A stretch of DNA of 27,146 bases from a virus. Under the pieces are notes generated by a model. That model made no database searches, was not told the origin of the DNA, and worked only from the letters and a program-made list of their open reading frames with translations. The translations under genes were made by a program, and so were the position numbers. Shown in pieces: positions 9,208 to 26,295 of the stretch. Numbering within the stretch: the first letter of the stretch is position 1; each line of letters opens with the position of its first letter. The stretch lies in IMG/VR virus record IMGVR_UViG_3300009705_003312, positions 1 through 27,146 of that record; one strand, 5' to 3'.

Positions 9208-10592
9208 TGTCTCAAATGTCTGAAGCACATTTCAGCAAGTACGGAAAGTCCTTTCAAGAAAAGATCTTCCAGTGTTTTATGTCAGATCGAGAGTGGGCTG
9301 CTCAAATGGTGGAGGTGATGAACCCGTCATTTTTTGATGTAAGCTATCTACAGTATCTTTCAGAAAGATTTTTTGCTTATTACACAAAGTATAAATGTTT
9401 TCCAACGCTCGGCCTTCTCGTGACTATTATAAAGGAAGACCTATCTCAGAAAGATGACTCTATTTTAAGAGACCAGATAGTATCATTTTTACATCGGTTA
9501 AAGACAAATCCTGCCATTGCCGATTTAGGCTATGTGAAGGATAAGACATTAGACTTCTGTAGAAAGCAAGCCTTCAAAGAAGCACTCGAAGAATCAGTAG
9601 AGCTAATACAAACAGAAAAGTTTGATTCTGTCCTTACAATTATGAAAAAAGCAGTATCTGTAGGACTTCCGTCCAGTACTGGCCATGACTTTTTCGAAGA
9701 CGCAGAAGCTCGATTTGTAAAGCTCAATAGACAGGCATGCCCAACAGGCTTACCAAAGCTCGATGCAAAAGACATACTGAGAGGCGGCCTGGGCCGCGGC
9801 GAGATTGGAGTAGTCACCGCGAACACCGGCGTTGGAAAGTCTCATTGGCTCGTTGCTATGGGGACTAATGCCATGAGAGCAGGCAAAAATGTCTTGCACT
9901 ACACATTCGAACTCACAGAGCATGCGGTCGGCCTTAGGTATGACTCTAATCTCTGTGATATTCCATCAAACGAGGTCCAGGACAGAAAAGACGAAGTACT
10001 CAAGAAGTATGAAGATCTCGAGCTTGGAAGGCTTATAATCAAAGAGTATCCGACAGGATCAGCAACATCAATCACGATAAGAAACCACATAGAGAAACTT
10101 ATGCTAAAAGGATTTTCTCCTTCTGTGGTTATTATTGATTACGCTGATATCATGAGATCTACGAAGTCGTATGACTCTTTGCGGCATGAGCTTAAGTTAA
10201 TCTACGAAGAGCTAAGAAATCTTGCAATGGACATGAGTATTCCTATCTGGACAGCATCGCAAGCTAACAGAGAATCTGCAAAGTCAGATATTGTAGGGCT
10301 TGAGAATATGTCTGAAGCCTATGGCAAAGCGATGGTCGCCGACTTGGTGATATCTATTTCTAGAAAGGCCACCGAGAAGGCCGGAAATTCTGGTCGACTA
10401 TTCGTTGCAAAAAATAGAGCTGGAAGAGACGGAATAGTTTTCCCGCTTCAAATAGACACGGCCAAAAGTACATTTAAGATTCTAGACGAGAGTGTTTTGA
10501 CACTTACTGAGGCAGTAAAGCAAACAGACTCAGAAATGAAAAACATTTTAAGAAAAAAATGGAGAGAGGTAAATGAAGAAGACAAACATTGA
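9207..10592 (+). CDS. DnaB/gp41-type replicative DNA helicase
   Basis: This 461-residue RecA-fold hexameric helicase has a helical N-domain (residues 1-150, DnaB-N-like), Walker A 'ANTGVGKS' (205-212), 'HYTFELTE' carrying the catalytic Glu, Walker B 'VVIIDYADIM' (307-316) and the sensor-like 'TASQANRES'. It unwinds the fork ahead of the polymerase. Its length suits T4 gp41 or DnaB. GAGGAGA precedes the ATG, which overlaps the exonuclease stop. Its own last 20 nt overlap the dUTPase start. No primase is seen in this window, so it must be encoded elsewhere or be taken from the host. Confidence 0.9.
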   Translation: MSQMSEAHFSKYGKSFQEKIFQCFMSDREWAAQMVEVMNPSFFDVSYLQYLSERFFAYYTKYKCFPTLGLLVTIIKEDLSQKDDSILRDQIVSFLHRLKTNPAIADLGYVKDKTLDFCRKQAFKEALEESVELIQTEKFDSVLTIMKKAVSVGLPSSTGHDFFEDAEARFVKLNRQACPTGLPKLDAKDILRGGLGRGEIGVVTANTGVGKSHWLVAMGTNAMRAGKNVLHYTFELTEHAVGLRYDSNLCDIPSNEVQDRKDEVLKKYEDLELGRLIIKEYPTGSATSITIRNHIEKLMLKGFSPSVVIIDYADIMRSTKSYDSLRHELKLIYEELRNLAMDMSIPIWTASQANRESAKSDIVGLENMSEAYGKAMVADLVISISRKATEKAGNSGRLFVAKNRAGRDGIVFPLQIDTAKSTFKILDESVLTLTEAVKQTDSEMKNILRKKWREVNEEDKH

Positions 10593-11076
10593 AATATGTT
10601 TAACTGAGAACGCCCAGGTAATATTACAACGTCTAGGGTTGGATCCTGAAAAATACGGAAGCGCGTATAATGGAGAAAGTGCAGGATTAGACCTTTATAA
10701 TATTGGCCCAGAAGTTAATATCTTAAGTAGGAACAAGTGGACTGCCTTCGGAGAAAAGTCTGTACAAATACCTACAGGTGTAAGAGTTAATATTCCTATG
10801 AACATGGTTGGACTAATAAAAGGCCGAGGAAGCATAACACAGACGGGCCTTATTGTCCGAGCCGGCGTCATAGACGCTGGATATACCGGAGAGATTTTTG
10901 TTAACTTAGTAAACATTGGTGAGAGAGACACAACAGTTAATCCGGGCGCAAAACTCCCCGTTCAGCTAGTTGTGTTACCATGCCACAATATATTTAAGAC
11001 AATCACATATACAGATTATATGAAGTCCATGGACCAAAGCAAGCGCATGGGCGGAAGCCTTGGTAGTTCTGATTAA
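10573..11076 (+). CDS. dut: Trimeric dUTPase (Dut)
   Basis: This 167-residue protein hydrolyses dUTP to dUMP and pyrophosphate, keeping uracil out of DNA and feeding dUMP to ThyX. The five motifs are present with variations: I 'SAGLDLYN' (36-43), II 'KGRGSITQTG' (83-92, GRGS instead of the common RSS), III 'GVIDAGYTGEIFVNL' with catalytic Asp101, IV 'GAKLPVQLVVLP', and a C-terminal Gly-rich motif V 'RMGGSLGSS' lacking the usual Phe. It overlaps the helicase gene by 20 nt, with GAGAGG inside that gene serving as ribosome site. It is distinct from the all-alpha pyrophosphatases further on. Confidence 0.9.
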   Translation: MKKTNIEICLTENAQVILQRLGLDPEKYGSAYNGESAGLDLYNIGPEVNILSRNKWTAFGEKSVQIPTGVRVNIPMNMVGLIKGRGSITQTGLIVRAGVIDAGYTGEIFVNLVNIGERDTTVNPGAKLPVQLVVLPCHNIFKTITYTDYMKSMDQSKRMGGSLGSSD

Positions 11077-16029: not shown

Positions 16030-16269
16030 ATGAGTGAGAAGAGCAAATCATACAACCTTTCAGATCGTGCAATCGCACAAATTATTCAGCTGATGCAATT
16101 AGGTATCTTAACTGGGACCGACGTCTCAGATCAAATGAGAACACTAAGAGTTGTAGAAGGCACAAATAATAAACTTGAGCCTTGCCCTGAGTATATGGAC
16201 ATGTTTAACGAGAATCTCGAGAAGATGAGGGCCATGGCCGACTCTGATGGCGATGCTGAAAATGAGTAG
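16030..16269 (+). CDS. Small hypothetical phage protein
   Basis: This 79-residue acidic protein is mostly helical: 'LSDRAIAQIIQLMQLGILTGTDVSDQMRTLRVVEG' (10-44), then 'CPEYMDMFNENLEKMRAMADSDGDAENE'. It starts directly after the glycosylase TAA with AGGAGA as ribosome site, and its end overlaps the start of the pyrophosphatase gene. No catalytic motif is seen. The tight coupling to a nucleotide pyrophosphatase suggests a shared operon but not a function. Confidence 0.6.
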   Translation: MSEKSKSYNLSDRAIAQIIQLMQLGILTGTDVSDQMRTLRVVEGTNNKLEPCPEYMDMFNENLEKMRAMADSDGDAENE

Positions 16270-16639
16270 CGACAATCTGTCTAGACTCTTTGGTCTAAGA
16301 AGAGATTTTATGAAGCGTCTTGAAGAATCTAAGCCGGGATCTTATCCTGATTGGCCTCTGGAGATCTCTTCGAAGAAGTCACAGCAAGTTTTAAGAGACA
16401 CAGCGCTAAAAGGCATAGAAGAAATGTTCGAAGCATTGCAGCATCTTAAGAATTGGAAGCCTCATAGAGACACAGAGCTAAAAGAGTTTGATAGAGATGA
16501 GTTTCTTGAAGAAGTTGTAGACGCTTTTAATTATTTTTTGAGCGTTCTGGTTCTTGTAGGCGTCGACGAAAAAGAATTCTTTGATGCCTACTGCAAGAAA
16601 GACGAGATCATCAGTAGCAGGTTGTCTAATGGATATTAG
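16262..16639 (+). CDS. All-alpha NTP pyrophosphatase (MazG/dimeric dUTPase-like)
   Basis: This roughly 125-residue protein (130 if it starts at the ATG at 16247) has the helical E-x-x-E / E-x-x-D metal site of all-alpha NTP pyrophosphatases: Glu59 and Glu62 in 'KGIEEMFEALQHLKNW', Glu89 and Asp92 in 'DEFLEEVVDAFNYFLSVL' (130-residue numbering). It ends 'KKDEIISSRLSNGY', a C-terminal pattern (K...R..NGY) that I associate with phage dUTPase/MazG-like proteins. It would split a (d)NTP into (d)NMP and pyrophosphate; the substrate (dUTP, dCTP or other) cannot be read from the sequence. T4 gp56 dCTPase/dUTPase belongs to this superfamily. I prefer ATG 16262, which overlaps the previous stop; neither start has a good ribosome site. 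It converges on the leftward gene with a 3-nt gap. Confidence 0.8.
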   Translation: MSSDNLSRLFGLRRDFMKRLEESKPGSYPDWPLEISSKKSQQVLRDTALKGIEEMFEALQHLKNWKPHRDTELKEFDRDEFLEEVVDAFNYFLSVLVLVGVDEKEFFDAYCKKDEIISSRLSNGY

Positions 16640-16642
16640 GTT

Positions 16643-17278
16643 TTAATACGCCAACACAAGAACTCTTGAGCAAGCAGCCAAATGAAGCGTAAAGCCTACC
16701 ATAACCAGAACATGCCACCATGTATGATTCCATTTTATAGTGTCTCTAGAGTAGAAACCCAAACCAATGCTATAAGCAACTCCGCCTAGAATCAGTATCC
16801 AAAGTGAAGATGTTTCAATATAGCCTGTTTTTCCAACCAAGCCAAGTGCCGGAAAGATTGCAGCCCACCCTAGAAGAACATAAGAAACCACAGAAAAAAC
16901 TTCTGTGGTTTTCCTTTTAATACAAAGTGAAGCTGTGAAAAATCCACCTAGTAAAATTAAAAATGAAGCAGACCCTGCAGCTGCCAAGCTGTTATAACAT
17001 GTTAAGCTTATTGATGTTCCACACCCAACAATCATTAAATAGATAGCAGCTTTATCTACGAGTCTATTTCTTTCTTTTTTTCTTGGGTTTTGTGTTGAAT
17101 GATAGAGAAAAGATGAAAAAAATGTCCAACAGGAAAGAGATATCATGAAGAGAAAAATAATCTTCCCCCTTAGCACAAGATTCTCATTTAAGAGGACAAT
17201 TAGAAGTGAGACAACTGAAAGAACGGACCAGACAAAGTGTGTATATGCATTGACGACCTCTTCTTCACCTGTTCTCAT
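16643..17278 (-). CDS. Hemolysin III / PAQR-family membrane protein
   Basis: This 211-residue protein with about seven hydrophobic helices is the only convincing leftward gene in the window. The family landmarks are present: N-terminal 'EEEVVNAYTHFVW', 'SSFLYHSTQNP' with His60, 'LVDKAAIYLMIVG' with Asp75, and 'NHTWWHVLVMVGFTLH' with the His185-x3-His189 pair. In PAQR proteins the Ser/His/Asp and HxxxH residues form an intramembrane zinc site proposed to act as a lipid amidase. It would sit in the host inner membrane. GGAGG lies 6 nt before the ATG. It faces away from the gene at 17399 and collides tail-to-tail with the one at 16262. The orientation and lack of a nucleotide-metabolism role suggest an acquired accessory (moron) gene. 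Confidence 0.85.
   Translation of the reverse strand: MRTGEEEVVNAYTHFVWSVLSVVSLLIVLLNENLVLRGKIIFLFMISLSCWTFFSSFLYHSTQNPRKKERNRLVDKAAIYLMIVGCGTSISLTCYNSLAAAGSASFLILLGGFFTASLCIKRKTTEVFSVVSYVLLGWAAIFPALGLVGKTGYIETSSLWILILGGVAYSIGLGFYSRDTIKWNHTWWHVLVMVGFTLHLAACSRVLVLAY
16885..16918 (+). terminator. Rightward terminator-like hairpin inside the antisense of the PAQR gene
   Basis: AACCACAGAA (16886-16895) pairs perfectly with TTCTGTGGTT (16901-16910) across a 5-nt loop; A16885-T16911 can extend it. It is followed by TCCTTTT on the plus strand only. The T-rich tail is directional for rightward transcription, so it could stop read-through from the upstream operon into the antisense of the leftward gene. 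It lies wholly within coding sequence. Confidence 0.5.
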
Positions 17279-17398: not shown

Positions 17399-18349
17399 AT
17401 GTCTAAAAAAATTAACGATATTTTAGAAATTCAGAAAAGTTTTTCTGACAACTTTTTTGACCCCGCTATGCTCTCTGAAAAAGAAAAAATAGAAAGGCAT
17501 AAGACATTTTGCCTGGCCCTTCACGATGAAGCATCTCAGCTTTCAGATGCTGTGCACTACAAAGACCATAGAGATTTCATAACACCCACTAACAAGCAGA
17601 AAATTCTTTATGAAGCAATAGACATTTTAAGATACTGCTTTGCTACGCTAAATCTTTGGGACTTCACTGCTGATGAGATCGAAGATGCATTCGACGCCCG
17701 GGACGCTTTTTTGTGGGACAGAAAGCAAAAACCTATTGAGGCCTGGGCCGGCCAGCCTGTAATTATAGTCGACGTCGACGATGTAATTGCATGTTTTAGA
17801 GACACATTTTTTGGCTGGCTTAATGAAAACTTTGGCTTAAAACTTTCTGTAGATTTGCCTGAATACTATTATAATGGTAAGGTTGGTGATCTAACTGGAG
17901 AAGAAGCATTTATGAAGTTCATTGACGAAAGCATGGTAAGAAGTATAGGCACCAGCCAGATAATGAAAGAAAGTCTACAAAAGCTAAGAGACGAAGGCTT
18001 CTGGATTCAGCTTTTGACTGCGAGGCCTTCAGATAACTTGAAGTGTTTGTATGACACTTATCACTGGCTAAATAGTAACAATATCCCGTACGATAATATT
18101 GCATTTTCATCAGAGAAATATAGATGGATAGCAGACAAAAAGTTTTTTAAAGAAGACAAAATATTCTGTGCAGTGGATGATTCACCAAAGCACGCGTCGG
18201 AGTACGCGTCTCACGGTGTGTATACACTGGTGCCTAGAAGATCTTATAACAAGACAGTTTGGTCTGACAAGAACATAAAAACTTTTGACTGGGAGAAGGA
18301 GTCGATTTATGACATCATTACACAGGCCTGGAATGAGCGTGATAAGTAG
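17399..18349 (+). CDS. MazG-like pyrophosphatase fused to HAD 5'-nucleotidase-like domain
   Basis: This is a 316-residue two-domain protein. Residues 1-112 form an all-alpha NTP-pyrophosphatase-like bundle ('HDEASQLSDAV' with Glu44; 'YEAIDILRYCFATLNLWDF' with Glu72 and Asp75). Residues 119-300 are a HAD hydrolase: nucleophile Asp125 and Asp127 in 'VIIVDVDDVIACF', Thr207 in 'LLTARP', lysines near 247-251, and Asp260-Asp261 in 'FCAVDDSPKHA'. The HAD part resembles deoxyribonucleotidases that release phosphate from dNMPs. In series the two domains could take a dNTP to a nucleoside plus pyrophosphate and phosphate, which would drain an unwanted or host nucleotide. No ribosome site is evident before the ATG. 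Its last 17 nt overlap the next gene. Confidence 0.78.
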   Translation: MSKKINDILEIQKSFSDNFFDPAMLSEKEKIERHKTFCLALHDEASQLSDAVHYKDHRDFITPTNKQKILYEAIDILRYCFATLNLWDFTADEIEDAFDARDAFLWDRKQKPIEAWAGQPVIIVDVDDVIACFRDTFFGWLNENFGLKLSVDLPEYYYNGKVGDLTGEEAFMKFIDESMVRSIGTSQIMKESLQKLRDEGFWIQLLTARPSDNLKCLYDTYHWLNSNNIPYDNIAFSSEKYRWIADKKFFKEDKIFCAVDDSPKHASEYASHGVYTLVPRRSYNKTVWSDKNIKTFDWEKESIYDIITQAWNERDK

Positions 18350-19536: not shown

Positions 19537-19992
19537 ATGAGTAATACTAAAAAGATTTACCTAGCATCTGGGTGGTTCAACCCGATGCAGGCTGAAGAAC
19601 TAACCAGGCTTGAGGACATTTGTGACACTCGCGAATGGATCGACTTAGCTTCACCCAGGAGGATTTTTGTGTGTCCTCCAGATGCCCCCAAAGAGACACA
19701 AGACGAGACTTTTGACGGTAATCTTCACCACATAAAGACAGCAGATTTTCTTATTGTCAATACTAGGGACAAGGATATCGGTACAATTTGGGAGGCTGGC
19801 TTTGCCCATGCAAATAATGTACCAATTGTATACTTTTGTCAAGGCCTGCCTGCAGGCGCCAAGTTCAATTTAATGCTCGCGAGAAGCGGCGCCAAGGTGT
19901 GTACTTCTTATGAGCAATTAGAAGACTACTTGGATAGATGCAATGCTGAGGGTGTTCTTTTAAACGAGCCTTACGACAAGGATATTGAATAG
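19537..19992 (+). CDS. Nucleoside 2-deoxyribosyltransferase-like protein
   Basis: This 151-residue protein exchanges or removes the base of deoxyribonucleosides, or hydrolyses nucleotides in related enzymes. It has 'KIYLASGWFNPMQAEE' at the N-terminus, Asp70 in 'TADFLIVNT', Asp80 in 'DKDIGTIWEAGFAHA' and the likely nucleophile Glu86. Its length fits the NDT family. AAGAGGA is a good ribosome site. Set between thyX and an epimerase, it probably belongs to base salvage, perhaps recycling deoxyribose from host nucleosides or handling an unusual base. The substrate cannot be read from the sequence. Confidence 0.8.
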   Translation: MSNTKKIYLASGWFNPMQAEELTRLEDICDTREWIDLASPRRIFVCPPDAPKETQDETFDGNLHHIKTADFLIVNTRDKDIGTIWEAGFAHANNVPIVYFCQGLPAGAKFNLMLARSGAKVCTSYEQLEDYLDRCNAEGVLLNEPYDKDIE

Positions 19993-19994
19993 AC

Positions 19995-20975
19995 ATGAAA
20001 GTACTTGTAACAGGAGGCGCCGGGTTCATAGCTAGTAATCTAGATGTGAGCCTTAGAAAAATGGGACACGAGACTATTCACATCGATGATTCCAACGTTG
20101 CAAGAATTACAAAGACAGCAGAGATGTGTGTTCATAGAAACACTGCTGAGACGTGGTCATGGCATCTTGATAATCTAGGTGTTGATTGTGTAATTCATAA
20201 CGCAGCTGTTGTAGGCACCGATGTGGTAGCATTGCATGCCAATGAAGCTTCTTTGACAAACGTTGCGGGAACCTATAATATAGTTCGAGCATGCAATCAG
20301 TCTAAGATACCAGTCTGCTATATGGGGACTACTGTGATCTACGACACAGCAAAATATCAGAATCAAAGGATTGTGGAAGATTCTGAGAAAAACCCTATGA
20401 CTTTTTACGGCATCCAGAAATTATCAAGTGAACAAATCATTACTTCACATGCAAAAGAATGGATGATCATCCGCCCACTTTTCGCGTATGGCGGGGTAGG
20501 CGATATGAATTCCTTAATAGCAAAGTCTATTTACGCTGTCAAGGATGAAAGAGAGTCATTAGATATGTTTTTGGATCCCGGCAAGATCAAAGATTACCTT
20601 CATGTTTCTGACTTCTGCGACGCTGTGACATTAGGTTGTCAAGAGGGTCTGTGGGGAGAAGACTATAATATTGCTTCTGAAAACCCAAGGTATACAGCTC
20701 AGATAGTTTCCATGCTAGCCGACGTGGTTAGTAGTAATCTTCCTCAAATTATTAAGTGGCACCCAGAGACCGATTATCTAGGCAACCATATGCTGTCTTC
20801 TGAAAAATTTAGGAATGCAACTTCATGGATGCCGAAGATTTCTTTGCTAGATGGAATAAAAATGTCTAAAAAAGAAATACTAGGTGATGAATCAGGATAC
20901 AACCCTCTTTTACATCTCGATGACGCAGAAGATAAGAAAATCAAGTTGACAGATTTCTATAATTCAAATATTTAG
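19995..20975 (+). CDS. NAD-dependent epimerase/dehydratase (extended SDR)
   Basis: This 326-residue Rossmann-fold enzyme acts on nucleotide sugars or related substrates. The dinucleotide motif 'VTGGAGFIASN' (5-15) is followed by an acidic pair at the second strand end (Asp31-Asp32), which favours NAD. Catalytic residues are Thr112/Thr113 ('GTTVIYD') and Tyr138-x3-Lys142 ('YGIQK'). It also has 'DYLHVSDFCDAV' typical of GDP- or dTDP-sugar epimerases. The ATG lies 2 nt after the preceding stop. No glycosyltransferase is in the window, so whether it serves a virion or surface sugar, or a sugar destined for DNA, is open. Confidence 0.85.
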   Translation: MKVLVTGGAGFIASNLDVSLRKMGHETIHIDDSNVARITKTAEMCVHRNTAETWSWHLDNLGVDCVIHNAAVVGTDVVALHANEASLTNVAGTYNIVRACNQSKIPVCYMGTTVIYDTAKYQNQRIVEDSEKNPMTFYGIQKLSSEQIITSHAKEWMIIRPLFAYGGVGDMNSLIAKSIYAVKDERESLDMFLDPGKIKDYLHVSDFCDAVTLGCQEGLWGEDYNIASENPRYTAQIVSMLADVVSSNLPQIIKWHPETDYLGNHMLSSEKFRNATSWMPKISLLDGIKMSKKEILGDESGYNPLLHLDDAEDKKIKLTDFYNSNI

Positions 20976-21134: not shown

Positions 21135-24100
21135 TTGTCTTCATCCTTTGACTCGTTCAAACCACCCACCAGATTTACCGGGCTTCATGCTCACTCCTCT
21201 TTCAGCACTTTCGATGGCTTAGGCTATCCTAAAGAACATATTGATTTCATTCTAAGCGAACAGCAAGGAATGGACTCTTGGGCTCTGACAGATCATGGAA
21301 ACGGCTCAGGCCTTGCACATGCAAGGGCACATACAGTAAAAATGCAAAAAGCTGGACGAAACTATCGACAGCTTTACGGTGTAGAATTTTATTTCGTGCC
21401 TTCTTTGTCAGACTGGCGAGATCAATATGACACTCATCGTCAAGAAGTTAAAAATGCAAAGTCTGCTAAAGAGCAAGAAAAGCGGGCAACTCAGAAAATT
21501 GTTATTGACGCCGAAGGTGAAGTAGAGCAAGGCGGCCATGTCATCGAAGACGAAGAAGAGACCAAACGTTCAAGCGCGAATAAGCCTGAATGGAAGAGAT
21601 ACTATCACCTGGTTATTATTGCAAAAAATCAGGTTGGTCTTGGAAACTTGTTCACCCTAGTCAAGAAGTCTTATAAGCATGGGTTCTATAGATTCCCTAG
21701 AATCGACTATAAAATGCTTAAAGAGCATGGCGAGGGGCTAGTAGTATCAACTGCCTGTGTAGGCGGCCTCGCGTCAGGATTAATTTATAAGCAATTCAGC
21801 GGCCTAAAGTTTGACGAGTTACATCCAAACTTGATGGACAACGTAGATAACTACAATCCTATTATGAATCGCCTAGAAAACATGGCAGATCGATTTGTAG
21901 ATTGCGTAGGGCCTGACAATTTCTTTCTAGAGATGCAATTTAACGATCTTCCGGCGCAGCACCTAACCAACAGATGTCTAATTGACCTTTCAGACAAGAC
22001 AGGGGTTCCTCTTGTAGCCACGGCCGACTCACACTTTCCAAGTGCTGATAAATGGCAAGCCCGGGAGCTTTATAAAAAGCTAGGCTGGATGGGCGCTAAG
22101 CTTGATCAAAGTATGCTCCCAAAAGAAGAGGATCTTAAGTGTATGCTGTACCCTAAGAACGCTCAACAGATGTGGGACGAATTCAAGCAAGGCCACGATC
22201 AGTATGATTTCTATAAGGGCCGCGAAATTCTTGTCAAAGATGCCATCGAGCGCACTCATGACATAGCCTGGCAAAAGTGTGAAGACACTTGGATTGACAC
22301 ATCAGTTAAGCTTCCTAAGTTCGGAACGCCTGAAAAGCCTGCATTTAAAATGCTAGCTGACCTTGTGAAAGAGGCTATGATCCGAGAAGACTTAGCATCC
22401 AACCCAGTGTACGTCGAGCGTATGAAGGAGGAGATGTCTGATATCAAGTTCCTTGGGTACGAGGCATATTTCTTAGCAATGTACAAGATTTTTCATCTTG
22501 CGGAAAAAAGAACGCTCTTCGGCCCAGGCCGCGGCTCAGGCGCAGGCTCTCTTGTAAACTACTTGCTGGGTATCACACAGATCGATCCCCTTCCGCACGG
22601 TCTTCTTTGGTCACGTTTTCTCGGCCGTCACCGAACATCCTGGCCCGATATTGACACAGATGCCGGCGATCGCAATGCTCTAATTGATGCTTCTCGTGAG
22701 CTATTTGGAGATGATGCTGTTATTCCTGTTTCCAACTTTAACACCCTAAAGTTAAAGTCACTGGTGAAGGATATCGCCAAGCTGTATGGCATCGACTTTG
22801 CAGAAGTTAATAAGATGACAGGCCCTCTTCAAGATGAAGTAATGCCTCATGCCAAGGATGAAAATCAAGAAAAGTCTGTGTTTGTATTAAGACATGAAGA
22901 CTGTATGAAGTATTCCACTGGCTATCGTGAATTTATGGAAAAGTATCCAGAAGTCGGTAAGCATGTAGAGACGTTGTTTATGGAAAACAGATCTATTGGT
23001 CGACACGCCGGCGGCGTTATTATTGCGCCACCAGACGAGCTGGCTTCAACAATGCCAATTATCGGTGTTAGAGGAGAGTTACAAACTCCCTGGACAGAAG
23101 GCATGAATTTCCGTAATCTTGAAGATAACGGATTCTTAAAGTTTGATTTTCTTGGCCTTACTCTCTTAAAAGACGTGGAAAATTGTATTGGCCGAATTCT
23201 TAAAAAGCAAGGAAACAATTCACCTACTTTTGCTAATATTAGAGACTTTTTTGATGAACAGCTTAATTGTCGCTATAACACACAAGACGACTCAAGTGTG
23301 TGGGAACATGTTTATCACAAGGGTCATTTTACCGGAATATTCCAGTTCACTGCTCCCGGAGCTAGAAAGTTCTGCTTAGCTGCCAAACCCACAACGATCA
23401 CAGAGTTGGCTGCTCTGACTGCTATCTATCGGCCTGGCCCACTAAAGGCTAACGTTCATAGAAAATATGTCAAAGCCAAAAAGAATTCATCTGAGATCAA
23501 ATACGATCATCCTGTAATTGAAAGCGTCCTCAGTCCTACGTTCAACTTTGTTGTGTTCCAAGAACAGTTTATGACACTTGCCGTCGAACTAGCAGGATTT
23601 TCTCCTGGCGAGTCTGACAAACTTCGTAAGACTCTTGTCAAGAAATCCTTAGACACCATGGGTAAAAAAGGCGGTGAAAGAGAAGCCGCACGTAAAAAGT
23701 TTATCCAGGGCGCAAAAGACTTACATGGAATCAACGAAGATATAACTCAAGCATTGTGGGAGACCATCGAAGCATTCTCTGTGTATGGGTTTAATAAATC
23801 TCACGCTGTGGCCTATGCGATTGACTCCTATTACGCTGCTTGGTTGCATACACACTACGAGGAAGAGTGGCTCGCTACAATATTGCAGTCTGAAAACACC
23901 AGTCCAAAAGGCTTAGCCAAAGCAATGGGCGAAATTAAAAGTTATGGCTACGAATTCACCGCTGCAGACATAAATCACTCTGGTGAAGAGTGGGTCTTTT
24001 CAAAAGATATTAGGGGATTCACACCACCACTCAGTTCTGTTAAGGGTGTAGGAAACACAGCGATGTCAGAGATCCTGCATATGAGGCCCTACCGGAGCCT

Positions 24101-24773
24101 AAATGATCTATTCTATGATGAAGAAGGCACATGGAAGCACTCTAAGGTTAACAAGACTGCACTTTCTTCTTTATGTAAGATTGAAGCTTTTGGTTCTCTA
24201 GAAGAGATCAAAAATAATAAAGTAAGCAACCATCGCCAGCTTCTTGCCATGATGACGGACGGCAAAAATTACGATACTCTTCGCCGCGGCCACTACGGCC
24301 TAACCAAAACACAAGTCAAACGAGCTGTTAAGAATGAAGAAACACTTCTGCCGTTAATAGACAGACTCATGAGCGATTATAGTGATATTCCAGATTGGAC
24401 CCGGCAAGAGAAGATAGTAAACTATGTAGAAATTACTTCTGGCGTCGACGCCGATCTCGTATTCCCGCCTAAGTTAATGAGTAAGATCAGAGAAAAAGAC
24501 CTTATTTCCATTCACGAAATAGCCCCGGGCTCTAGAAATGTAGGCTGGTTCTGCGTTTCTGAAGTCATTAAGAAAAAGACTAAGAATGGAAAAGACTTCC
24601 ATCGGCTCAAGGTGATAAACGATGAGTATCAGACATCTTGGATCAGAGTTTGGGGTCGACCCAACGAAGACATTGTGCCGTATACTCTCTGGGTGGCTGA
24701 TGTTCATCATGACGATACTTGGGGTTATTCGACATCATGTTACAAGATGAAGAGAGTGAGTTCTTTTGACTAG
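21135..24773 (+). CDS. dnaE: DNA polymerase III alpha subunit, DnaE type, with intact PHP domain
   Basis: This 1212-residue C-family polymerase is probably the phage replicase. The PHP domain (about 12-310) keeps all nine metal ligands by alignment: His18, His20, Asp27, His54, Glu84, His158, Cys208, Asp298, His300. It carries a charged insert at 100-150. The palm has 'GPGRGSGAGSLVNYL' (463-476), Asp505 and Asp507 in 'WPDIDTDAGDRN', and Asp671 in 'KFDFLGLTLL'. 'GFNKSHAVAYAIDSYY' lies in the fingers. A helix-hairpin-helix ('VKGVGNTAMSEIL') and an OB-like C-terminal part follow. The start is TTG at 21135 with AGGAG 6 nt upstream; no nearby ATG fits. No separate proofreading exonuclease or sliding clamp is seen in the window. 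Confidence 0.93.
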   Translation: MSSSFDSFKPPTRFTGLHAHSSFSTFDGLGYPKEHIDFILSEQQGMDSWALTDHGNGSGLAHARAHTVKMQKAGRNYRQLYGVEFYFVPSLSDWRDQYDTHRQEVKNAKSAKEQEKRATQKIVIDAEGEVEQGGHVIEDEEETKRSSANKPEWKRYYHLVIIAKNQVGLGNLFTLVKKSYKHGFYRFPRIDYKMLKEHGEGLVVSTACVGGLASGLIYKQFSGLKFDELHPNLMDNVDNYNPIMNRLENMADRFVDCVGPDNFFLEMQFNDLPAQHLTNRCLIDLSDKTGVPLVATADSHFPSADKWQARELYKKLGWMGAKLDQSMLPKEEDLKCMLYPKNAQQMWDEFKQGHDQYDFYKGREILVKDAIERTHDIAWQKCEDTWIDTSVKLPKFGTPEKPAFKMLADLVKEAMIREDLASNPVYVERMKEEMSDIKFLGYEAYFLAMYKIFHLAEKRTLFGPGRGSGAGSLVNYLLGITQIDPLPHGLLWSRFLGRHRTSWPDIDTDAGDRNALIDASRELFGDDAVIPVSNFNTLKLKSLVKDIAKLYGIDFAEVNKMTGPLQDEVMPHAKDENQEKSVFVLRHEDCMKYSTGYREFMEKYPEVGKHVETLFMENRSIGRHAGGVIIAPPDELASTMPIIGVRGELQTPWTEGMNFRNLEDNGFLKFDFLGLTLLKDVENCIGRILKKQGNNSPTFANIRDFFDEQLNCRYNTQDDSSVWEHVYHKGHFTGIFQFTAPGARKFCLAAKPTTITELAALTAIYRPGPLKANVHRKYVKAKKNSSEIKYDHPVIESVLSPTFNFVVFQEQFMTLAVELAGFSPGESDKLRKTLVKKSLDTMGKKGGEREAARKKFIQGAKDLHGINEDITQALWETIEAFSVYGFNKSHAVAYAIDSYYAAWLHTHYEEEWLATILQSENTSPKGLAKAMGEIKSYGYEFTAADINHSGEEWVFSKDIRGFTPPLSSVKGVGNTAMSEILHMRPYRSLNDLFYDEEGTWKHSKVNKTALSSLCKIEAFGSLEEIKNNKVSNHRQLLAMMTDGKNYDTLRRGHYGLTKTQVKRAVKNEETLLPLIDRLMSDYSDIPDWTRQEKIVNYVEITSGVDADLVFPPKLMSKIREKDLISIHEIAPGSRNVGWFCVSEVIKKKTKNGKDFHRLKVINDEYQTSWIRVWGRPNEDIVPYTLWVADVHHDDTWGYSTSCYKMKRVSSFD

Positions 24774-24785
24774 GGAGGCTCTAAA

Positions 24786-25694
24786 ATGAAATTTAATACG
24801 CAGAGTTTAATACTCGAAGGCCCAGACCTTTCAGGTAAAACAACGTTATACGAAGACCTTCACAAGCTATCAGGCTTTAAGTGGAACATCCAGGACCGAT
24901 CTTGTCTTTCAATGGTTTGTTACGCAATACAGTTTGGAAGAGATGTGTCTAAGTGGAGAGACCAGCTTGAGATAGAACTGTCGAACCTTAATAATCGGAT
25001 GATAGTTTTGTTGCCAAAGTTCTCTGTGCTGGAAGAAAGATATCATCAGAGAGGCGACGACATTCAAGATATTGACTCCTTGAGGTGTTTGTATGAGATA
25101 TTTAAAAATGAAATTGAACGACTAGGCCCTCGCCCCACACTTAAGATTATAAGATCATCTTGGAGCACAAATCAAAATGCTTCTGATATATTAAACTGGA
25201 TTGAGACTTTGGAAAACACTTCACCGAAAGATGTAGGGACAATTATAAGAGATTATGTTCTAAACTCCGAGAAAGATGAGTATGTTCTGGATGTGACAAT
25301 TGAAAACACATTAAAAGTGGTCAACCCCGACATAATGAATCATCCGAGTGAAGGAAAATATTACTCAGAAATCCTAAATAGCTTTGATAGAAAAATTTGT
25401 AATGAAAAAGCAGGCCGCAATGAGTATAAAAAGACTCAAGGCGATGACAGCAGAAGATTCTATTACAGCTCTGACTCTTGCATCTCAAGTCTACATATAA
25501 TGCCCCGCGACAATAAACTTAAAGCTGTATGTTCGCTAAGGAGCACAGATGTTGTTAGGAATGGTGAGATTGATCTTGTCTTTCTAGATTACATGATGTC
25601 TCTTTTAGGACAAAATCATTTTAAAAATTATAGAAATTATAACATGCGTGTAAGATTAAATAGCGCACACTTTAGACGAGATCTAGACCGATAG
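24786..25694 (+). CDS. P-loop dNMP kinase fused to a ThyA-fold (dCMP-hydroxymethylase-like) domain
   Basis: This 302-residue protein has two parts. Residues 1-145 are a thymidylate-kinase-like P-loop domain: Walker A 'GPDLSGKTT' (12-20), 'DRSCLS' near 37-42, and 'ERYHQRGDD' (84-92) where dNMP kinases have DRY. Residues 150-302 resemble a compact thymidylate-synthase fold: 'YVLDVTIENTLKVVNP', 'DSRR' (221-224, the phosphate-binding SRR), candidate nucleophile Cys232, 'MPRDNKLKAVCSLRSTDVV' with Arg252, Ser253 and Asp255. Eight residues after Asp255, where E. coli ThyA has base-reading Asn177, is Asp263, as in T4 dCMP hydroxymethylase. The domain is shorter than ThyA, and the SRR-to-Cys gap is about 8 rather than about 19, so it could be degenerate. 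GGGAGG precedes the ATG. Confidence 0.6.
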   Translation: MKFNTQSLILEGPDLSGKTTLYEDLHKLSGFKWNIQDRSCLSMVCYAIQFGRDVSKWRDQLEIELSNLNNRMIVLLPKFSVLEERYHQRGDDIQDIDSLRCLYEIFKNEIERLGPRPTLKIIRSSWSTNQNASDILNWIETLENTSPKDVGTIIRDYVLNSEKDEYVLDVTIENTLKVVNPDIMNHPSEGKYYSEILNSFDRKICNEKAGRNEYKKTQGDDSRRFYYSSDSCISSLHIMPRDNKLKAVCSLRSTDVVRNGEIDLVFLDYMMSLLGQNHFKNYRNYNMRVRLNSAHFRRDLDR

Positions 25695-25728: not shown

Positions 25729-26295
25729 ATGCAACCTGAATTAATAGTTTACACGGGCCCTATGTTTGGCTCCAAGACGACAAAAATGCTAACTGTTCTA
25801 GAACGAGCATGCTATCAAAACAAGTCTGTGATAGCTTTCAAGCCTAAGATGGATGATAGATATGATTCAGGCAATATAGTAACTCATGCCGGTCTGAAGT
25901 TTGTTGCACAAAACGTTCAGACCGGACAAGAAATATTAGAGAAAGCCACAGAATATGATATTGTTGGAGTCGACGAAGCATTTATGATAGAAGGAGCCGC
26001 CACCGCATTGATAGAGCTTTATAAAATGGGCAAGACTGTAGTAGTATCTTCGATTCAACTTTCTGCCTCGGGTCAAGTCTTTGAAGAAATAAAAGACTTG
26101 CTTCCTTGGGCTACGAAAATAGAAGTATGCCCAGCAGTGTGTGTCAAATCCGGCCTGGATGCCTACTTTACAGTTCGAAAGTCAGATGGAAGACAAGAAA
26201 TCGAAGTAGGCGGCTCAGAGCTATACGAGCCCCGCGCGTGGTCTCACACACCTTTCGTTAATTTAAAGTTTGGAGTCAATAATGGACCCGTCTAG
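25729..26295 (+). CDS. tdk: Thymidine kinase (TK1 family)
   Basis: This 188-residue enzyme phosphorylates thymidine to dTMP. It has the P-loop 'GPMFGSKTT' (10-18), where the family norm is GPMFSGK[ST]: the Ser-Gly pair is reversed, so the Gly before Lys16 is lost. 'VGVDEAFMI' carries the catalytic Glu83, and 'SSIQLSASGQVF' is the region after it. The zinc lobe is eroded: Cys134 and Cys138 remain around 'CPAVCVKSGLDAYFT', but the second Cys pair of 'YxxxCRxC' reads 'YEPRAWSH'. Length is usual. AAGAGGT is a good ribosome site. It overlaps the DHH gene by 14 nt. Confidence 0.82.
   Translation: MQPELIVYTGPMFGSKTTKMLTVLERACYQNKSVIAFKPKMDDRYDSGNIVTHAGLKFVAQNVQTGQEILEKATEYDIVGVDEAFMIEGAATALIELYKMGKTVVVSSIQLSASGQVFEEIKDLLPWATKIEVCPAVCVKSGLDAYFTVRKSDGRQEIEVGGSELYEPRAWSHTPFVNLKFGVNNGPV

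Follow-up and report, generated by a model that had tools for sequence, protein, structure and literature searches.

A phage-encoded fusion of a kinase domain and a minimal ThyA-fold domain as a predicted one-chain route from dCMP to modified dCDP

The window analysed here, a complete IMG/VR entry of 27,146 bp and a linear fragment, encodes a protein in which a dNMP-kinase-like domain is joined to a minimal domain with a predicted ThyA fold. The active-site residues of this fusion are fixed across its family, its ThyA-like half has dCMP-acting enzymes as its nearest relatives, and its gene is linked to that of a DNA polymerase (Table 1). We consider it reasonably probable that the protein is a bifunctional precursor enzyme, predicted to act both as a dCMP C5-modifier and as a kinase for the modified dNMP. 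An initial annotation of this DNA had proposed such a one-chain route to modified cytosine, and the residues that it named (Walker A, SRR, Cys232, RSTD, and Asp263) are all present in an intact open reading frame. The core of that proposal, a kinase fused to a ThyA fold with a cytosine-type Asp, is upheld by the predicted fold and by residue conservation, whereas two of its props, the redundancy of a thymidylate synthase next to ThyX and a kinase like T4 gp1, had to be given up, as discussed below.

In known ThyA-type enzymes, the phosphate-binding Arg pair is supplied by the other subunit. By the mechanism proposed here, the ThyA-fold domain, which is probably dimeric, would bind dCMP through R223' and R224' of the other subunit together with R252, S253, and H295, and Asp263 would read the cytosine. 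Cys232 would then attack C6, and a one-carbon or one-oxygen group would be added at C5. The N-terminal kinase may subsequently phosphorylate the modified dCMP to the diphosphate, and it is proposed that the modified deoxycytidylate is in this way passed on towards the DnaE polymerase specified by the adjacent gene, possibly for incorporation into DNA.

Table 1. Features of the fusion gene and of its neighbourhood in the window
Feature	Position	Strand	Basis
Fusion protein, 302 aa: dNMP-kinase-like N-domain and minimal ThyA-fold C-domain	24786..25694	+	intact ORF; 80 distinct relatives
P-loop kinase domain (YorR/thymidylate-kinase-like), residues 1-145	24786..25220	+	phrog_761, YorR 2axp, Foldseek
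Walker A GPDLSGKTT, residues 12-20	24819..24845	+	G12, D14, G17, K18 invariant, 81 sequences
Minimal ThyA-fold domain (predicted), residues 146-302 (~157 aa)	25221..25691	+	AlphaFold, Foldseek, profile E 2.4e-4 to T4 dCMP hydroxymethylase
Glu189, candidate counterpart of folate-activating Glu58 (E. coli ThyA)/Glu60 (T4)	25350..25352	+	E 80/81
S222-R223-R224, predicted phosphate-binding Arg pair	25449..25457	+	R 80/81 at each Arg
Cys232, predicted catalytic nucleophile (E. coli Cys146, T4 Cys148)	25479..25481	+	C 80/81
RSTD 252-255, predicted phosphate-binding RS motif	25539..25550	+	position 255 N/D/E across family
Asp263, pyrimidine-reading position (E. coli ThyA Asn177, T4 gp42 Asp179)	25572..25574	+	D 80/80; 26/26 in second sample
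S293-A294-H295, counterpart of ThyA His207 region	25662..25670	+	H 79/80; aligned
DnaE-type DNA polymerase III alpha	21135..24773	+	PF07733, PF17657, PHP; directly upstream of fusion
Thymidine kinase	25729..26295	+	PF00265 E 1e-31; near fusion in 64/80 loci
All-alpha dNTP pyrophosphatase, gp56/dUTPase_2 superfamily	16247..16639	+	phrog_12184 E 6e-16
Divergent ThyX paralogue with AQCTGDR loop	18556..19527	+	PF02511 E 8e-17; motif in 80/80 relatives

A first relative was obtained from a scan of environmental viral contigs and further ones through alignments, which after de-duplication gave 80 distinct relatives besides the window protein, nearly all of about 300 aa. Their carriers form a large family of environmental phages, with contigs of up to 284 kb. 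Among 50,697 isolated phage genomes there was no direct homologue at E 1e-3, and relaxed limits gave only weak matches to the kinase half. A separate scan for a free-standing ThyA-like domain, with patterns taken from the C-terminal domain alone, returned only loci carrying the whole fusion, so that no free-standing copy was detected at that reach. Since the search patterns that yielded the relatives might skew the residue counts, a second sample was collected through the neighbouring ThyX gene, thus not selected on the fusion protein, even though some contigs are shared with the first. No publication describing this fusion was found in a partial coverage of the literature. One phage-like contig (PBHZ01000014.1) with the fusion, DnaE, and the ThyX variant has been assigned to a Euryarchaeota MAG; it is probably viral and possibly mis-binned.

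The initial annotation had called for a structure prediction as a check on its proposal, and the predicted fold is indeed ThyA-like rather than unrelated to ThyA. AlphaFold models of the fusion (69 family sequences; pLDDT 96.1, pTM 0.90) and of the C-terminal domain alone (52 sequences; pLDDT 96.0, pTM 0.90) were compared with the PDB by Foldseek, and the dCMP hydroxylase AfhB (9iqu) came first for both, with a TMq of 0.64 for the domain model. T4 dCMP hydroxymethylase and ThyA followed in both lists. MilA appeared as well when the domain model was used, and the E-values of the C-terminal domain against these four enzymes ranged from 1e-6 to 1e-4. The global TM-scores, about 0.4-0.64 relative to the query, are moderate because the domain lacks around 100 ThyA residues. 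In BFVD, its best viral structural match was the dCMP hydroxymethylase gp42 of Acj9. On these models, the C-terminal domain is a ThyA fold.

Comparisons that made no use of structure point in the same direction. A profile of 52 C-terminal domains, searched against 177,635 distinct PDB sequences, matched just two ThyA-fold enzymes, both dCMP-acting: T4 dCMP hydroxymethylase (E 2.4e-4; D179N mutant 6l18, E 0.005) and AfhB (E 0.009), whose PDB sequences are labelled 'thymidylate synthase' while the entry titles give dCMP hydroxylase. The D179N mutant still scores, so the relation to the T4 enzyme does not depend on the Asp alone. Against single sequences, the profile gave 27.8 bits with PAU gp182, 24.2 with the T4 enzyme, and 9.4 with E. 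coli ThyA. The alignment to nine ThyA-superfamily enzymes by hhalign covered the whole domain (E 3.6e-10), and three relatives matched the phrog_160 thymidylate synthase (E 9e-4 to 4e-3). The fusion gives no match to PF00303 (ThyA) at its curated cut-off, which is a recognition criterion and not a biochemical one.

The superfamily order of an RR pair, a catalytic Cys, RSx[D/N], and a His is kept throughout the family, with a Glu at the RSx position in 14 relatives. R223, R224, C232, and Glu189 are each conserved in 80 out of 81 sequences, and R252, S253, and H295 in 79 out of 80; one degenerate copy is the source of the outliers at C232, R223, R252, S253, and H295. The residue eight positions past the acidic position of RSx[D/N/E], D263, is Asp in every sequence scored (80/80). 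In the ThyX-derived sample, D263, C232, R223, R224, E189, and H295 are present in all 26 sequences. The spacing of 20 residues between the Cys and the RS motif, found in 75 out of 78 sequences scored, is also that of E. coli ThyA, T4 gp42, the Mosigvirus AfhB-type enzyme, and PAU gp182. The short distance between SRR and Cys, flagged by the initial annotation as a caution, is real: the first Arg of SRR lies 9 residues before the Cys in 78 out of 78 sequences scored, against 20 in E. coli ThyA, and is thus a trait of the family.

An Asp at the position of Asp263 has been linked to cytosine in published work. The Asn177 of dUMP thymidylate synthases is replaced here by Asp in both samples (80/80 and 26/26), as is the case in T4 gp42 with its Asp179. 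The D179N substitution lowers the kcat of T4 dCMP hydroxymethylase up to ~3600-fold (PMC6400193). In phage contigs split by an experimental selection for cytosine modification, position 177 was one of the two top positions separating modified (Asp) from unmodified (Asn) contigs, and the ThyA-type genes there co-occurred with dCMP deaminase and with a domain of the phosphoribosyl-ATP-pyrophosphohydrolase type (MazG-like) (PMC8670742).

The nearest alternative to a dCMP enzyme is a thymidylate synthase and thymidylate kinase in one chain, converting dUMP to dTMP and dTDP. The initial annotation had set this aside on the grounds that ThyX already makes dTMP. However, the ThyX of the window is divergent, with a conserved catalytic loop RHRxxSFxAQCTGDR in place of the canonical RHRxxSYNExSRRY, so its production of dTMP cannot be assumed and the redundancy argument falls; a one-chain route to dTDP would be needed precisely because the local ThyX has diverged. 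This keeps the thymidylate reading alive, though we regard it as improbable. The kinase half falls in families named thymidylate kinase, and the nearby dCMP deaminase, dUTPase, and thymidine kinase would feed dUMP and dTMP. Among 49 long records, ThyX is found in 46, no canonical ThyX is shown in 26, and PF00303 ThyA passes the cut-off in none. On the other side, a canonical ThyX is additionally present in 23 out of these 49 carriers, the pyrimidine-reading position is Asp and not Asn in all relatives, and the catalytic Cys is followed by Ile or Leu where E. coli ThyA has His. The domain-profile search, moreover, gave no dUMP thymidylate synthase at E<1, even though many are among the PDB sequences.

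The AQCTGDR motif was also found in 25 out of 25 ThyX proteins of the neighbour-derived set, whereas for the set of 80 relatives the search pattern could include the motif. When the 49 ThyX loci extending 6.5 kb or more downstream were examined, 24 had the fusion there; several of the other loci lie on contigs that carry it elsewhere, so no conclusion is drawn on whether this ThyX variant and the fusion are strictly linked. The divergent ThyX also has an extra C-terminal stretch and gave 210 matches in viral contigs. We regard the AQCTGDR-type ThyX as a candidate for an unusual pyrimidine-modifying flavoenzyme.

T4 gp42 is the best PDB sequence match of the fusion domain. Both share the ThyA fold, SRR, Cys, RSxD, the Asp at +8, and the His, but T4 gp42 is a stand-alone protein of 246 aa with a full folate site, whereas the fusion domain has ~157 aa, is linked to a kinase, and lacks Gly173. 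The best structural match is instead the 5-hydroxy-dCMP synthase of AfhB/Mosigvirus type (PDB 9iqu, 9iqc). This type shares the Asp at +8 and the SAH motif with the fusion, and differs from it in its separate genes, a Phe at the Glu58 position, RSQN, and a larger domain. The genus Mosigvirus has been reported to build arabinosyl-cytosine from 5-hydroxy-dCMP (PMC13390438). In Mosigvirus p000v, a ThyA-like gene is found two genes away from a 'thymidylate kinase' gene, a pair that by analogy represents an unfused parallel to the fusion. MilA, the CMP hydroxymethylase, also has a ThyA fold and a cytidine nucleotide as its substrate, but belongs to antibiotic biosynthesis and has no kinase; it has ~319 aa and prefers ribose (PMC5175136).

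The residues that distinguish these chemistries appear to be split in the fusion family, some being hydroxymethylase-like and others hydroxylase-like. The folate-type enzymes compared keep Glu58, Asp169, and Gly173, and mostly Trp80, whereas the corresponding residues in the three hydroxylase-type enzymes compared are Phe, Asn, Val/Thr, and Ala/Ser. Glu189 sits in an ExxYY motif, and two profile alignments place it at Glu58 (ELLWF/ELEWY), with low local confidence. Position 255, the counterpart of the folate-contacting Asp169, varies in the family (Asn in 35, Asp in 31, and Glu in 14), no Gly is among the residues listed at position 259, the counterpart of Gly173, and that of Trp80 was not identifiable in the family alignment. 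Given a dCMP C5-modifier, hydroxymethylation would have not far short of an even chance, hydroxylation would be possible though on the doubtful side, and methylation would be unlikely.

A flavin-dependent hydroxylase of AfhB type, producing 5-hydroxy-dCMP, is a sub-case of the dCMP reading and not additional to it, and taken by itself we judge it unlikely. AfhB was the top Foldseek match in both PDB searches, the highest profile score belongs to the hydroxylase-type PAU gp182, and the RSxN of 35 relatives, the missing Gly173, and SAH[IV] in place of xxHxY would all fit. Against this, the three hydroxylase-type enzymes have Phe where the Glu189 of the family (80/81) aligns, again with low confidence, and the window protein itself has RSTD.

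The strong truncation with respect to ThyA, the loss of several folate contacts, and the presence of a real kinase could also suggest a sensing rather than a catalytic role for the ThyA-like domain, which would detect dNMPs and regulate or target the attached kinase. We regard this possibility as improbable, slightly more so than the thymidylate one. The catalytic Cys and Glu189 vary as little as the residues that bind phosphate and base, which a pure sensor would not be expected to show.

The kinase half matches the phrog_761 thymidylate kinase (E 2e-10), its profile matched YorR (2axp, E 5e-11) among the PDB sequences, and in Foldseek the kinase half of the fusion model matched YorR 3kb2 and vaccinia TMPK. 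K18, D37, R38, R85, R89, G90, and D91 are invariant, and the Walker A, the DRS motif, and the RGD lid segment of YorR/TMPK-type dNMP kinases are all present. In Pfam, the window protein gave only sub-threshold matches to DUF1951 (E 0.06) and AAA_28. YorR of SPbeta and the phage 'thymidylate kinases' of phrog_761 are thus alike in sequence and fold, but YorR has 173 aa and no ThyA-like domain. The dNMP kinase gp1 of T4 phosphorylates hm-dCMP, and the initial annotation had taken it as the model for this half. Such a homology was rejected (hhalign E 0.016, probability 3): the pathway role would be analogous, with no homology detectable past the P-loop.

A DnaE-type polymerase gene is present in 80 out of 80 loci, and in the loci inspected closely it immediately precedes the fusion gene. 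Also near the fusion are a dCMP deaminase (65/80), a sugar-nucleotide epimerase (57/80), and a DHH-like protein (46/80). The nearby pyrophosphatase of the T4 gp56 superfamily, expected from the initial annotation, is confirmed: the protein at 16247 and its relatives align with the T4 gp56 dCTPase (hhalign E 5e-6), and 43 out of the 49 long records have a PF08761 (dUTPase_2) match and 47 a member of the dCMP deaminase family. Even though dCMP deaminase and MazG-like enzymes are commonplace in phages generally, this context would correspond, by analogy, to the T4 set of steps around dCMP. No conserved second-step transferase was found, with a carbamoyltransferase in 1 and a GT2 in 4 out of 27; T4-type AGT was found in none of the 49 records, an uninformative result since the control matched nowhere.

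If true, the proposed function would represent a compact pathway on a single chain that takes dCMP to modified dCDP in environmental phages, and the sequence of the fusion would serve to mark out phages whose cytosine is likely to be modified. It would bear on the evasion of restriction and CRISPR and on the bias of sequencing against modified DNA, and would offer a minimal ThyA fold for asking what this superfamily needs for C5 chemistry. A bolder and doubtful extension is that a widespread lineage of DnaE-encoding environmental phages combines one-polypeptide synthesis of modified dCDP, by means of an unusually small catalytic domain of ThyA type, with the AQCTGDR-type ThyX, in which case both DNA pyrimidines could be non-standard.

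Several other features of the region were observed. Two adjacent all-alpha pyrophosphatase-like proteins (16247-16639 and 17399-18349) have relatives that match different halves of dUTPase_2, and in the second this part is joined to an NT5C-like deoxynucleotidase/HAD domain. Just upstream of DnaE lie a nucleoside 2-deoxyribosyltransferase-like protein (19537-19992) and a nucleotide-sugar epimerase (19995-20975), both of which many relatives also have next to the fusion. Among genes of the region with a Pfam match, the only sizeable one on the minus strand encodes an HlyIII-family membrane protein (16643-17278). In 52 out of 80 loci, a gene similar to Fe/Mn superoxide dismutases follows the fusion at a distance of ~5 kb (10038-10757 in locus L007). 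Finally, the DnaE of some relatives (L004, 3540-5999; L005, 4926-5999) has an apparent intein-like interruption, ending in ...HN right before TSWPDID or SHSVSYAIDS.
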